A stretch of 64,000 nt of DNA, taken from an uncultured Bacteroidales bacterium (GTDB taxonomy: Bacteria > Bacteroidota > Bacteroidia > Bacteroidales > UBA932). Where the stretch lies: the NCBI GenBank assembly GCA_944326265.1, contig CALVDE010000004.1, forward strand, positions 62,001 to 126,000, given 5' to 3'. Both the position numbers and the translations under genes were made by a program. Below are positions 3,438 through 63,317 of this stretch, one piece after another (the stretch's first letter is position 1; every line of letters starts with the position of its first letter). Below the pieces are notes generated by a model. The model ran no database searches. It was given only the letters and a program-made list of their open reading frames with translations, and had not been told where the DNA came from.

Positions 3438-3467
3438 GCATTCTGCAATTTATTTTTGCTAAATAAT

Positions 3468-3498
3468 TTTGTAAAAATTAAATCATATTTTATTTTTG
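3468..3498 (+). promoter_or_regulatory. Promoter, textbook Bacteroidales match
   Basis: TTTG at 3468-3471, a 19-base spacer, then TATTTTTG at 3491-3498. Both elements and the spacing match the -33/-7 consensus. The start codon at 3516 gives a leader of about 12 bases. A second TATTTTTG lies upstream at 3451-3458. Confidence 0.8.
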
Positions 3499-3515
3499 TA
3501 TAAAATTTTGCAAAA

Positions 3516-4670
3516 ATGAAAATCAGTAGAACTCTTCAGGCTAAACTTCAATCCCTTGCGATGAAATTTCCTTTTGTCACACTTACCGGGCCACGGCAGT
3601 CAGGCAAATCTACCTTAGCCGCAGCCGCATTCCCAGATTATCGCCAGATCTCCCTCGAAGATCTTGACAACAGGGAATTTGCAGCCAATGACCCCAGAGG
3701 GTTTATCGCCACCTACCCGTCGCAGACCATAATTGACGAAGTCCAGAAAGTTCCGTCACTGCTTTCCTATCTCCAGACACACGCCGACAGAACCGGTAAA
3801 ATGGGAATGTACATCCTGACAGGTTCGCAGAACTTCGAGCTGATGAAAGCCATAGACCAGTCTCTGGCGGGAAGGACCGGCCTTCTGACTCTGCTGCCAT
3901 TCTCCCACGAGGAGATGCAGCAGGCCGGCATACTTCCGGAAAGTTACGATGCAGAAATATTTTACGGCTCATATCCAGCCATCTACGACAGGGAGATAGA
4001 TCCAGCAGACTACTACCCGAGCTACATCAAGTCCTATATCGAAAAGGATGTAAGGGAAATGAAAGCAATTGAAGACCTCTCGCGCTTTAAAAAGCTGGTC
4101 CGCCTGTGCGCCGGACGTATAGGACAGTTGCTCAACAAAGCCTCTCTTGCCGTCGAGTGCGGTATCTCTGCCCCGACCGTAGACGCATGGCTGTCCATTC
4201 TTGAAGAGAGCTACATCATCTACTTTCTGCGCCCGGACTACAATAATTTCTCAAAACGGCTCGTCAAATCCCCAAAGCTCTATTTCCATGACACGGGGCT
4301 TGCCTGCTCACTGCTGGACATCAGAAGCCAGACCCAACTGTCAACACACTATCTCAGAGGCAGTCTGTTCGAGAACATGGTTATAAACGAGTTTACGAAA
4401 CGCAGCCTTAACAGAGGAAACGAGCCGGCACTCTCATTCTGGCGCGACAGCACGGGACATGAGATTGACCTGATAGTTTCAGAAGAAGGCATCCAGCACG
4501 CCTACGAAATAAAATCCGGAGCCACATTCTCCACCGACTTCTTCAAGGGGCTGAACTACTGGGCAGGACTGTCAGGCGCAGCACCCTCCCGACGTACTGT
4601 CATCTACATGGGAGAAACAGCACTGATGACCTCAGACGGAGACCTGCGTCCCTGGAAAGACTTGGGATGA
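3516..4670 (+). CDS. AAA ATPase with C-terminal DUF4143 domain
   Basis: 384 residues, normal length for the ATP-binding AAA_14 plus DUF4143 family that is common and multicopy in Bacteroidales. Walker A is GPRQSGKST (residues 25-33) and Walker B is TIIDEVQKV (about 70-78). The C-terminal domain carries a PD-(D/E)XK-like pattern: GHEIDLIVSEE followed by AYEIKSG (D...E-x-K). The cellular role of the family is not established; a nucleic-acid-related or selfish/defence role is inferred from the nuclease-like fold. It is monocistronic with its own promoter, convergent with mutB. Lower-GC flanks suggest it may be an insertion. Confidence 0.9.
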   Translation: MKISRTLQAKLQSLAMKFPFVTLTGPRQSGKSTLAAAAFPDYRQISLEDLDNREFAANDPRGFIATYPSQTIIDEVQKVPSLLSYLQTHADRTGKMGMYILTGSQNFELMKAIDQSLAGRTGLLTLLPFSHEEMQQAGILPESYDAEIFYGSYPAIYDREIDPADYYPSYIKSYIEKDVREMKAIEDLSRFKKLVRLCAGRIGQLLNKASLAVECGISAPTVDAWLSILEESYIIYFLRPDYNNFSKRLVKSPKLYFHDTGLACSLLDIRSQTQLSTHYLRGSLFENMVINEFTKRSLNRGNEPALSFWRDSTGHEIDLIVSEEGIQHAYEIKSGATFSTDFFKGLNYWAGLSGAAPSRRTVIYMGETALMTSDGDLRPWKDLG

Positions 4671-60091: not shown

Positions 60092-61216
60092 TTAAAATAG
60101 TTTCCAAACCAATGTCACTCCGGCATTTACCGGGCCAATCCAGTGCTTCGTCTCGTTGCCGCTGCGCACCCGCACTCCGTCTATCACATCGTATCTCTCC
60201 GTATCGGCGTTCAGGTAGCCCAGTCCGAGGGTGAAGTCAAGTGCCAGTGCCTTGTTCAGCCGCAGCTGGTAGCCGCCGGTGATGCCACCGCCTAAGAGGT
60301 CGCCCTGCCTGCCCGTGCCGGAGAACTTGTAGTTGAACTGTCCGGCCTTGAACATCGCGCCCACATACCAGGCTTTCTTCTCGCCCAGATACCAGCGCAC
60401 CTCCGGCATTACTTCCCAGAGGGCATAGCGGCGGGCGTTGTCATTCCATGTCCAAGAGGTCCACGAGCCGTTCACCATGACACCCACGGACGGGCTGATG
60501 CGCCACTCGATGCCAAGGTCGGGCGTGAGCGTGGCCCAGCGCAGCAGGTTGGCACGCAGGGAGAGCGTGTAGCTGTCGGCATCTTCGGCTTTCTCCGCCG
60601 ACGGGCTCACGGTCTCCGTCTCGCTTCCGGCTGCGGCCCGCTCCCTTGCGAGGCTGTCGGCCATGGCCTGTTCCGATGCAAGGCGTGCCGCTTCGGCGCG
60701 TTCTCGCTCCGCCTTTTCCCGGGCCGCACGCTCCTGCTCCAGCCGCTGCTGCTCGGACTCCTCTGTCCTTCGATGCCCGGCGGCAAGACACGCCTCCTCA
60801 GCATCGTCCCTGACGGCCGGAATAACTATGCGCACGGTCACATAGTCGCCGCTGCCGGAATGGTTCTTCGTAATGAAGCTCTCTTCGGTCAGCTGCTGAC
60901 GCACAATCAGCTCCGATTTCACACGGTTGGAGCGGATCTTCGACATGGCGAGATTTTCCGCCTCGTCCTCTCCTGCCGCGCTGTAGCCGTCCACATAAAG
61001 CGGAGTCTCTCCGGAGAGGATGTCAGCCCTGTACTGCTCCACGCACCGCATCAGCCTTTCCAGTTCCGCATCGTTGCCTCCGTAAGGAACATAGAACATG
61101 TCCCGGTCAGAGACGAAGCGGAAGGTGTAGACCGTATCGCTCTTCTCCTGCGCCGACAGAGGCAGCAGGAATAAAGCGCAGATGGCGGTCGCTATGGTTC
61201 TCAAAGTCTTGCTCAT
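60092..61216 (-). CDS. DUF3575 outer-membrane protein, first gene of the fimbrial operon
   Basis: 374 residues. Signal peptide (cleavage near LSAQE). An N-terminal OmpA-like segment (about 30-135: RFVSDRDMFYVPYGGNDAELE, VDGYSAAGEDEAENLAMSKI) is followed by a charged coiled-coil linker (about 150-205, EESEQQRLEQERAAREKAER). The C-terminal DUF3575 barrel-like domain runs from about 215 (LRANLLRWATLTPDLGIEWR) to a terminal Phe (LVWKLF). DUF3575 proteins regularly head Mfa/Fim fimbrial operons in Bacteroidales, probably as an outer-membrane/peptidoglycan link. Confidence 0.9.
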   Translation of the reverse strand: MSKTLRTIATAICALFLLPLSAQEKSDTVYTFRFVSDRDMFYVPYGGNDAELERLMRCVEQYRADILSGETPLYVDGYSAAGEDEAENLAMSKIRSNRVKSELIVRQQLTEESFITKNHSGSGDYVTVRIVIPAVRDDAEEACLAAGHRRTEESEQQRLEQERAAREKAERERAEAARLASEQAMADSLARERAAAGSETETVSPSAEKAEDADSYTLSLRANLLRWATLTPDLGIEWRISPSVGVMVNGSWTSWTWNDNARRYALWEVMPEVRWYLGEKKAWYVGAMFKAGQFNYKFSGTGRQGDLLGGGITGGYQLRLNKALALDFTLGLGYLNADTERYDVIDGVRVRSGNETKHWIGPVNAGVTLVWKLF

Positions 61217-61780
61217 ATTCTCATATCTGGTTTATCGGTTTGCTGTTGGATACAAAAAGCCCCGGTGACATACAGGCACGGCTTTGCCTTGCACTGTATG
61301 CAGCCGGGGGATATGAAGTATGCCCGCCTGCGCGTTGCTGCGTGGCGGTGAGGTCTGCGGGAGATGTAAATTTTCCGCTAAGTGTTTGTGGATTAAATGA
61401 TTTGCAGTATCTTGACGCGCGAGTCCTGTGTGTGTTTACACGATTTTCCCGGATTTCCAAATATTTATTAAGAAATCCGGCTCCCTCCGCACTCCACGCA
61501 CTAACTATATGACCGACACCGCTCATCAAAGAAATTCTACTTTGGCCACAAAGCTACAAAAAATATCCGGACAAACTCCGCCACGTCCCGATAAATTCCA
61601 CAAACTCACCCATTCCCGTCCGCCTGAGCACACCAGCACCCAATCCAGAGCGGATAAAAACCGGATAAAGCGGATAAATCCCACACTCATTCATCAGATA
61701 GCCTCCATCCCGGACTCAGCCCACGGGAGACGTTGGAAATCCTGCCCTGCCGCCTCCACACCTTCATCACACGGCTGTGC
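61217..61780. other. Leader/upstream region of the fimbrial operon
   Basis: About 560 bases without a supported gene. A minus-strand -7-like element lies at 61549-61556, which would give a ~330-base leader. The rest is moderately AT-rich around 61380-61560. No invertible-promoter repeats (long inverted repeats flanking a promoter) were seen. Confidence 0.5.
61549..61556 (-). promoter_or_regulatory. Possible -7 element of the fimbrial operon
   Basis: TAGCTTTG on the minus strand is the only consensus match I found between 61217 and 61700. The long leader and lack of a -33 element at proper spacing keep confidence low. Confidence 0.35.
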
Positions 61781-62370
61781 CCACAACGGCAGCGTTTTCC
61801 GCAATTCGGTGCTGTTGCGGAACAGGGGGAAGCGGCTAATGCAGCTCAGAACGCCTGTAGAGGCGGTGTGCGTTTCCGGGACCTTCCACAACGGCAGCGT
61901 TTTCCGCAATTCTCTGCCGTTGCGGAACAGGGAGAAGCGGTGAATGCGGCTCAGAACGCCTGTGGAGGCGGTGTGCGTTTCCAAGCCCATCCACAACGGC
62001 AGCATTTTCCGTAATTCACTGCCGTTGCGGAACAGGGAGAAGCGGTGAATGCGGCTCAGAACGCCTGTGGAGGCGGTTTGCGCTTCCGTGACCTTCCACA
62101 ACGGCAGCGTTTTCCGCAATTCGGTGCCGTTGCGGAAAAGGGGGAAGCGGTAAATGCGGCTCAGAATGCCTGTGGAGGCGGTGTGCGCTTCCGTGACCTT
62201 CCGCAACGGCAGCATTTTCCGTGATTCTGTGCCGTTGCGGAACAGGGAGAAGCGGTGAATGCGGCTCAGAATGCCTGTGGAGGCGGTGTACGTTTCCAAG
62301 CCCATCCACAACGGCAGCGTTTCCCGTGATTCTCTGCCGTTGCGGAAAAGGGAGATAGGGGGAGCCAGGT
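61781..62370. repeat. Tandem array: six copies of a 105-bp unit upstream of the fimbrial operon
   Basis: Copies begin at 61781, 61886, 61991, 62096, 62201 and 62306 (the last partial), with no length change between the five full copies. Each starts CCACAACGGCAGCGTTTTCC (or a close variant) and contains two interlocked dyads: AACGGCAG...CTGCCGTT and TTCCGCAA...TTGCGGAA, in the order a-b-a'-b'. Copies 2 and 5 share the linker CCAAGCCCAT; copies 3 and 4 share CCGTGACCTT. Because 105 is a multiple of three, open frames run through the array on both strands (for example minus 62311-61694), but these look incidental. Confidence 0.9.
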
Positions 62371-62399
62371 CTTGGCGGAAACGGCAAGTGCAGTGGCGG

Positions 62400-63317
62400 T
62401 TATTTGATGCCGAAGGTGTCCTCGGGGCATGTACCGGTAGGCTCGATGTGGACCACTATATCGTAGACTTCGGGGATATTGTCCCGGATATTCTGCTCGA
62501 TCTGGTTGGAGAGGGCGTGGGCCTGGTTGAGAGTCATCCCGCCGTCCGCCTCCACGTCGAGGGTAATCATATATTTGCCGCCGATACTGCGGGAGCGGAC
62601 CCTGTGCGGATTGCTGACTCCGTCCACCTTGCTTATGGCATCGAATATCCTCTGATAGACAGACTCGTCCTTCACGCCATCCATAAGTTCCACGTTGGAG
62701 TCCATGAATATCCTGATGGCCGAGCGGATGATGAAAAGGCTCACCAGCAGGGCCGTAACCGAATCCAGCACAGGCATGTCGAGGATGAACGAGAAGAACA
62801 GGCCTACAAGCACGCTCAGCGAGATAATCACGTCGTTGCGCATATTGACCCCGTTGGCCGTCAGCATGGACGAGCCGGTACGCTTTCCTGCCCTGGTCTG
62901 ATACAGCGAAAGCAGCAGCTTGCAGACTATCGAGAAAACTGTCACGTATATGGCCAGGGCTCCCGGCATCACTTTATCCTCGTGCGAGAACAGATGCTCC
63001 ACGGCGGAAATCAGCATCTCCGCTCCGGCGAAGAATATCAGCATCGACAATATCTTGGTGGCTATCGACTCCGCCTTGGCATATCCGTAGACATACTTGC
63101 GGTTGGGACGGCGTCCCATGACCTTGGCCGCCACTATCATCACTATCGACACCGCCACGTCAGACGCTGAGTCGATACCGTCTCCCACCACGGCGGAACT
63201 GCCGCTTATCACACCTGTCACGATCTTGGCCACCGACAACAGACCGTTGCCTATGATGCTGACATACGATGCCGTCAGTATCTGCCTCTCCACCGTTTTC
63301 TGACTTTCCTTTCCCAT
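62400..63317 (-). CDS. Cation diffusion facilitator (CDF) family efflux protein
   Basis: 305 residues from the ATG at 63317 (MGKESQKTVERQILTASYVS); the longer frame to 63467 crosses the promoter. Six membrane helices are visible. The transport-site helix 2 carries VVGDGIDSASDVAVSI (D-x3-D). The helix 5 counterpart is ANGVNMRNDVIISL (N-x3-D), where zinc exporters have H-x3-D, so Mn, Fe or another cation is possible. The C-terminal cytoplasmic domain (about 210-300) is complete: VYQRIFDAISKVDGVSNPHR, YMITLDVEADGGMTLNQAHA, VYDIVVHIEPTG. Confidence 0.93.
   Translation of the reverse strand: MGKESQKTVERQILTASYVSIIGNGLLSVAKIVTGVISGSSAVVGDGIDSASDVAVSIVMIVAAKVMGRRPNRKYVYGYAKAESIATKILSMLIFFAGAEMLISAVEHLFSHEDKVMPGALAIYVTVFSIVCKLLLSLYQTRAGKRTGSSMLTANGVNMRNDVIISLSVLVGLFFSFILDMPVLDSVTALLVSLFIIRSAIRIFMDSNVELMDGVKDESVYQRIFDAISKVDGVSNPHRVRSRSIGGKYMITLDVEADGGMTLNQAHALSNQIEQNIRDNIPEVYDIVVHIEPTGTCPEDTFGIK

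Follow-up and report, generated by a model that had tools for sequence, protein, structure and literature searches.

The closest described systems to the hairpin array reported here are the REP, BIME and REPIN sequences of E. coli and Pseudomonas with their TnpAREP (RAYT) proteins, likewise dispersed, clustered intergenic imperfect palindromes that likewise flank a single-copy HUH/Tyr gene, with one RAYT type per REP type. In Pseudomonas SBW25, REP doublets occur at 71 and 110 bp, and REPs also form tandem clusters, some of them beside RAYT genes (PMC3116915). Few REP-RAYT pairs have biochemically studied recognition, all of them from Proteobacteria, and a stem irregularity is needed in E. coli REPs (PMC8266576). 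Among the TnpAY1 proteins, subclass 2.6 and class 3 are also without a GT[AG]G foot (PMC6006769). Subclass 2.6, from Bacteroidetes, is associated with atypical secondary structures and with copies elsewhere in the genome, and its features are NHxH, WQ and YIH[QN]NP motifs, a length of ~179 aa and a HUH-Y distance of 82 (PMC6006769). Members of subclass 2.1 / TIRYT have C-terminal HTH domains, and no REP-like sequences were reported for subclass 2.1 (PMC6006769, PMC3733652).

Here, we analysed a window of 64,000 nucleotides from an uncultured Bacteroidales bacterium that contains a tandem array of 105-bp units. The array is very probably a cluster of selfish-like REP elements of a divergent REP-RAYT system in this Bacteroidales genus, because its hairpin is dispersed and flanks a RAYT gene, its stem type tracks the RAYT tree, and its copy number varies by whole units. 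A preliminary description of this DNA had correctly recognised the exact period, the hairpin-forming units and the variability in copy number. Its reading of the array as a fimbrial control element is not supported, and it missed the RAYT-associated REP context.

Anatomy of the array

Tandem Repeats Finder (TRF) reported a period of 105, 5.5 copies, 89% matches, 0% indels and a score of 870 at 61781-62355, and a register scan gave a self-identity of 0.896 at shift 105 vs 0.16-0.35 for every other shift between 95 and 115; the exact period noted earlier is confirmed by both. The units are mutually 84-93% alike, without indels, and make up five full 105-bp units plus a terminal sixth hairpin, with unit homology stopping near 62355. 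Six tandem units had been described at 61781-62370: the repeat is real, but only five units are full, the sixth is the hairpin half, and the end lies near 62355 rather than 62370.

Each unit consists of one 13-14 bp hairpin (TTCCRCAACGGCAG, a 16-nt loop, CTGCCGTTGYGGAA) and a 65-nt spacer, the latter length being measured between 40-nt hairpin cores. The array was assigned to the minus strand, where a stem G.T wobble replaces an A.C mismatch in five of the six units; this is also the coding sense of both neighbouring genes. The features, in window coordinates, are as follows.

60092-61216, minus strand: DUF3575 gene (Pfam DUF3575), first of a fimbrillin/Mfa-like operon, followed by Mfa2 and Mfa_like_1 genes
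61781-62355, minus strand: probable REP array, five full units and terminal hairpin (TRF, repeat finder, register scan)
61779-61822, minus strand: probable REP hairpin, unit 1, 44 nt, with one more stem position mispaired on this strand
61821-61885, no strand assigned: 65-nt spacer of unit 1, recurring at 61926, 62031, 62136 and 62241, with core GCYCAGAAGGCCTGTRG
61884-61927, minus strand: probable REP hairpin, unit 2 (RNA fold z = -5.1 on the minus strand)
61989-62032, minus strand: probable REP hairpin, unit 3
62094-62137, minus strand: probable REP hairpin, unit 4
62199-62242, minus strand: probable REP hairpin, unit 5, with a perfect stem
62304-62347, minus strand: probable REP hairpin, unit 6
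62400-63317, minus strand: CDF-family cation efflux gene (Pfam Cation_efflux 8e-41, ZT_dimer 6e-22)

Spacers at other loci are equal in length to that of unit 1 and related to it in sequence. Three other classes of repeat were considered and set aside. A coding repeat (105 = 35 codons) is disfavoured, as each of the six frames is open in 32-50 of 69 units and none stands out, and as variable sites are not clearly biased towards any codon position. The spacers are akin to each other and the repeats vary, which does not fit a CRISPR array, and gene cassettes are absent between units, which does not fit integron attC sites. Elsewhere in the window, at 3449-3525, TRF reported an A+T-rich 39-bp tandem repeat in two copies.

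Dispersal, neighbouring genes and the RAYT gene

BLAST and pattern searches found about 17 copies of the hairpin in the array's own genome (G000), located at C1, C3, C13, C17 and C20, with six of them in the window; these counts were drawn from the searches and from the stretches read. We searched 40 genomes, 19 of the same genus (own included) and 21 others, with a hairpin pattern of 8+18+8 bases allowing up to one mismatch. Among the same-genus genomes, 15 of 19 contained it, with 4-128 matches each: 14 of 18 congeners had 4-128 copies, the own genome had 19 matches, and four congeners had none. The 21 genomes of other genera gave a single isolated one-mismatch match, and a reversed control pattern matched one place in total. 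Based on ORFs as a proxy for genes, 52 of 56 hairpin clusters in the stretches read were intergenic (outside long ORFs), and in 31 of 44 cases it was the 3' end of a gene that lay closest.

Two other sequences were observed. An unrelated hairpin-rich element of ~100 nt (AAGACCAGGCCCTCCC...GGCTAGTCTTTTCTCG) lies just upstream of a gene at L005:1708-1811 (G000:C3) and has several copies per genome across the genus. Furthermore, ~40 nt just outside the first hairpin (CTCTCATCGGATATCTCGCTCTACTGG...) are common to the RAYT locus and the C3 site (L002:1460-1500, L005:1460-1500, L012, L013), which suggests either that the end of the element is longer or that copying took place.

The array has six units here and three at the same site in the congener G017, with near-identical flanks and a difference of exactly 315 bp, in line with the variability that had been proposed for it. 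Orthologues of the C3 site contain 0 (at least seven genomes), 1, 2, 2, 2, 3 and 8 copies, and those of the C13 site 0, 1 (six genomes), 2, 3 and 3. From this presence and absence of units at orthologous sites, where insertion and loss look alike, we infer that the unit is probably mobile.

The array is situated just downstream of the CDF gene, whose stop is 45 bp away, and 564 bp from the start codon of the DUF3575 gene, and is therefore nearer to being a 3' neighbour of CDF than a fimbrial leader. Its position upstream of a minus-strand operon, together with a copy number that differs between species (6 vs 3), would suit a leader-region repeat whose number tunes the Mfa/fimbrillin operon, as had been suggested. 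We consider such dedicated control very unlikely, given the distance to the first start codon and the dispersal of the same unit beside dozens of unrelated genes. Scattering of this kind is what the preliminary description had itself named as evidence against its reading. Near relatives G012 and G018 likewise argue against it, as their CDF gene is 97-99% identical and has other sequence beside it, the array being absent. No sigma-70 consensus match was found in 61100-62500, below shuffled expectation, in a scan that does not model Bacteroidales promoters; no intrinsic terminators were found, again below shuffled expectation. The array probably does not regulate fimbriae, and any effect that it has is most likely one generic to REPs, namely stabilisation of the CDF mRNA 3' end or transcript termination. 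The case cautions that a series of tandem dyads found ahead of an operon of interest may turn out to be a REP array.

Five of the dispersed hairpins flank a gene with RAYT-like features.

G000:C17:80229-81182: RAYT-like HUH/Tyr gene, 318 aa (NCBIfam REP_Tyr_transpos), with two hairpins 5' and three 3'

Its product matched NCBIfam REP_Tyr_transpos NF047646 with E 5.6e-10 and 39 bits vs a cut-off of 80, and Pfam Y1_Tnp weakly (E 0.011, 16 bits vs a cut-off of 23). The catalytic signatures are MSTHAH (HxH) and, 57 residues on, YVLKNP (Y-x3-NP), and there is a C-terminal extension of ~200 aa. An AlphaFold model built with 4 sequences reached a pLDDT of 44, too poor to confirm the fold, and a PDB sequence search gave no meaningful match. 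In three congeners, a 94-99% identical RAYT gene is bordered on either side by hairpins of this family, and the own genome has six related RAYT genes in all.

The cognate RAYT (at least 94% identical) is present in only 4 of the 15 hairpin-bearing genomes of the genus, the draft assemblies of the other 11 being without it; in the 94%-complete draft of G013, for example, there are 106 exact hairpins but no cognate RAYT. The gene may fall into gaps that the assembly left at repeats, it may have been lost, or another RAYT may act in its place; hairpins at contig ends suggest assembly breaks without proving them. The four hairpin-free genomes of the genus are all without this RAYT clade, a pattern that is consistent but not significant. 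A contig-end RAYT fragment in G003 (66% identical) was rejected as a cognate, as its sequence belongs to the CACCTTC-type lineage. In addition, RAYT relatives that are ~31-34% identical and have HUH/Tyr motifs occur with no adjoining hairpin array (L091, L095-L100, L102-L104, L021-L024, L039) and are a candidate domesticated clade.

These observations bear on whether the array could be a tandem repeat born locally and expanded by slippage, with no link to a transposase. Changes in copy number by whole units, without indels, would be expected of such a passive minisatellite, but single and multiple copies dispersed at a 105-bp pitch over unrelated loci refute it as the sole cause. RAYT genes with hairpins on both sides and the presence/absence of units at orthologous sites also speak against it, and there is little chance that this account is correct, though slippage may still set the local copy number.

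Sister families, pitch and fold

Related RAYT genes of the genus lie beside hairpins with other stems, namely GAAGGTGCCG, GAGAGTGTAC, CACCTTCGGAAGGTG, ACTCCTTCCGAAGGAGT and GCAGGTGAACC, as well as AGGTGAG-type and GGAAAGTG-type stems. Stem type changed 9 times on the RAYT tree, compared with a minimum of 8 and a shuffled mean of 19.8; L106 was labelled by relatedness with no hairpin seen beside it and the hairpin at L020 is possibly not its own, each of which affects one label, and near-identical rows inflate such clustering. To judge from these sequences, stem type follows the RAYT tree. The loops of the sister families resemble the loop of the CAACGGCAG hairpin beyond shuffles (combined p 2e-5, with 3-4 of 7 families carrying most of the signal), likely because of common ancestry. 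At least seven RAYT lineages occur in this one genus, several of them within a single genome, and their hairpins differ in stem but are related in loop. They constitute a natural swap experiment on both the recognition code and the spread of palindromes by domesticated HUH transposases.

A second REP family is composed of CACCTTCSGAAGGTG pairs ~39 nt apart that recur every 118/117 bp, at L009:2395-2570 (G000:C1) and at many other loci. It adjoins a second RAYT lineage and is often found beside CAACGGCAG hairpins (L003, L006). Many perfect 15-bp palindromes (AAACGTGTTAGGTTT; AACTTTGACAAAGTT) lie around further order-level RAYT-like genes at L028 and L030.

At unrelated loci in many genomes, the distance between neighbouring hairpins is 105 bp for 69 of 75 pairs, 104 bp for three and 106 bp for two. 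The spacers have the same length and a weak consensus (the GCYCAGAAGGCCTGTRG core), with a median pairwise identity of 49%, and GTRG is found mid-spacer in 41 of 69. Where both hairpins could be oriented, neighbours at a pitch of 104-106 had the same orientation in 60 of 65 pairs and were inverted in five. Compared with most loci, the hairpins in the window and in G017 are in reversed orientation relative to the spacer.

A pitch kept at exactly 105 bp while the spacers diverge might be taken as functional phasing over ten helical turns in a double-stranded protein-binding array of ParB or nucleoid type. We regard this as highly improbable, since the sites are scattered with no fixed position and RAYT-linked sister families keep other pitches (118/117, 106, 104 and 94/106 in addition to 105, with few pairs for the last three), so that ten turns are not a general rule. 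The exact pitch is better explained by whole-unit copying than by helical phasing.

The arms that had been ordered as a-b-a'-b' are present, but AACGGCAG/CTGCCGTT and TTCC(A/G)CAA/TTGCGGAA each form half of a single continuous stem of 13-14 bp, and the loop motif TTCCGCAA competes with them as a further, third copy of the 5' foot. Compared with shuffles, the hairpin alone had fold z values of -4.7 and -5.1. Forcing the alternative pairing gave -5 to -16 kcal/mol vs -17 to -25 for the plain hairpin in all six units and on both strands, i.e., it was weaker by about 2.6-20 kcal/mol in every case, and two exclusive hairpins or a pseudoknot, as earlier envisaged, are accordingly not favoured. Few arm columns vary within the window. 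In unit 1, CTGCTGTTG keeps a G.U pair on the plus strand and breaks the pair on the minus strand, and the earlier remark that arm changes preserve G-T pairing applies to the former and fails on the latter. An RNA switch, in which the four arms would form exclusive hairpins with regulatory meaning, is most improbable: on one strand, each position of the loop CCGYRA is able to pair with the 3' arm TTGYGG (G.U counted) in 84-96% of 128 copies, but the resulting fold is the less stable one throughout, protein recognition equally predicts loop conservation, similar loops occur with unrelated stems, and no Rfam family reached its gathering score for the array.

The stem itself is irregular. In 77% of 48 loci its third pair, counted from the foot, is not Watson-Crick but A.C or G.T, and the excess of this mismatch over independence had a median Fisher p of 4e-4, with one copy drawn per locus as copies within a locus are related. 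The irregularity is absent in unit 5. By analogy, the mismatched pair is reminiscent of the bulge required in E. coli REPs (PMC8266576).

Probable mechanism and relation to known REP-RAYT systems

The most likely mechanism is RAYT-assisted spread with whole-unit expansion and contraction, any effect on the 3' end of the CDF transcript being no more than one generic to REPs. The RAYT would recognise the folded single strand, with the variable stem conferring specificity and the conserved 16-20-nt loop held in common, and would nick this strand via its catalytic Tyr, by which units could spread to new intergenic sites. Once two units stand in tandem, replication slippage, unequal recombination or rejoining by the RAYT could alter their number by whole units, and the pitch would stay exact for that reason. 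The position of the array just past the CDF stop would be happenstance. A more specific version is conceivable, and we hold it only tentatively: a cassette made up of hairpin and spacer and constant in length (105 nt here, other lengths in the sister families) would be amplified head to tail by the extended RAYT, the stem serving as a changeable address for each RAYT and the loop as a common handle, with the unit copied whole, e.g., as a single-strand circle, and not as inverted doublets.

Fixed spacing and tandem clusters are common to this array and the SBW25 REPs (PMC3116915). Several traits set it apart from the REPs of E. coli and Pseudomonas. Its hairpin does not have their GTAG/GTGG foot, the foot being mostly TTCC or TACC; its loop is a conserved 16-nt sequence whereas theirs are mostly short; its neighbours are mostly in the same orientation, unlike the inverted doublets of BIME/REPIN; and its repeated unit includes the 65-nt spacer. 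The missing foot excludes the canonical GTAG-REP class and not an association with RAYTs, since atypical groups also do not have it.

Subclass 2.6 shares with the system described here its occurrence in Bacteroidota, the HUH and Y-x3-NP motifs, flanks without GT[AG]G and copies in the genome. The RAYTs of this genus, however, have mostly S[T/N]HxH, no W, YVL[KR]NP, a distance of 57 residues and a length of ~318 aa, and do not fit subclass 2.6 in motif, length or distance as given in its table and text (PMC6006769). The long C-terminal extension past the Tyr motif is common to this RAYT and subclass 2.1 / TIRYT, but here hairpin arrays flank the gene, unlike in subclass 2.1, and the extension gave no Pfam HTH match. 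BrickBuilt, a minisatellite-MITE of Porphyromonas gingivalis, is likewise from Bacteroidales, intergenic and built of a tandem unit within a dispersed element; it differs in its 23-nt unit, absence of spacers and different ends, and its abstract mentions no RAYT link (PMC4596501). By its features, the system is a REP-RAYT system, and among the described subclasses compared, drawn from open papers, it is a variant that fits none.
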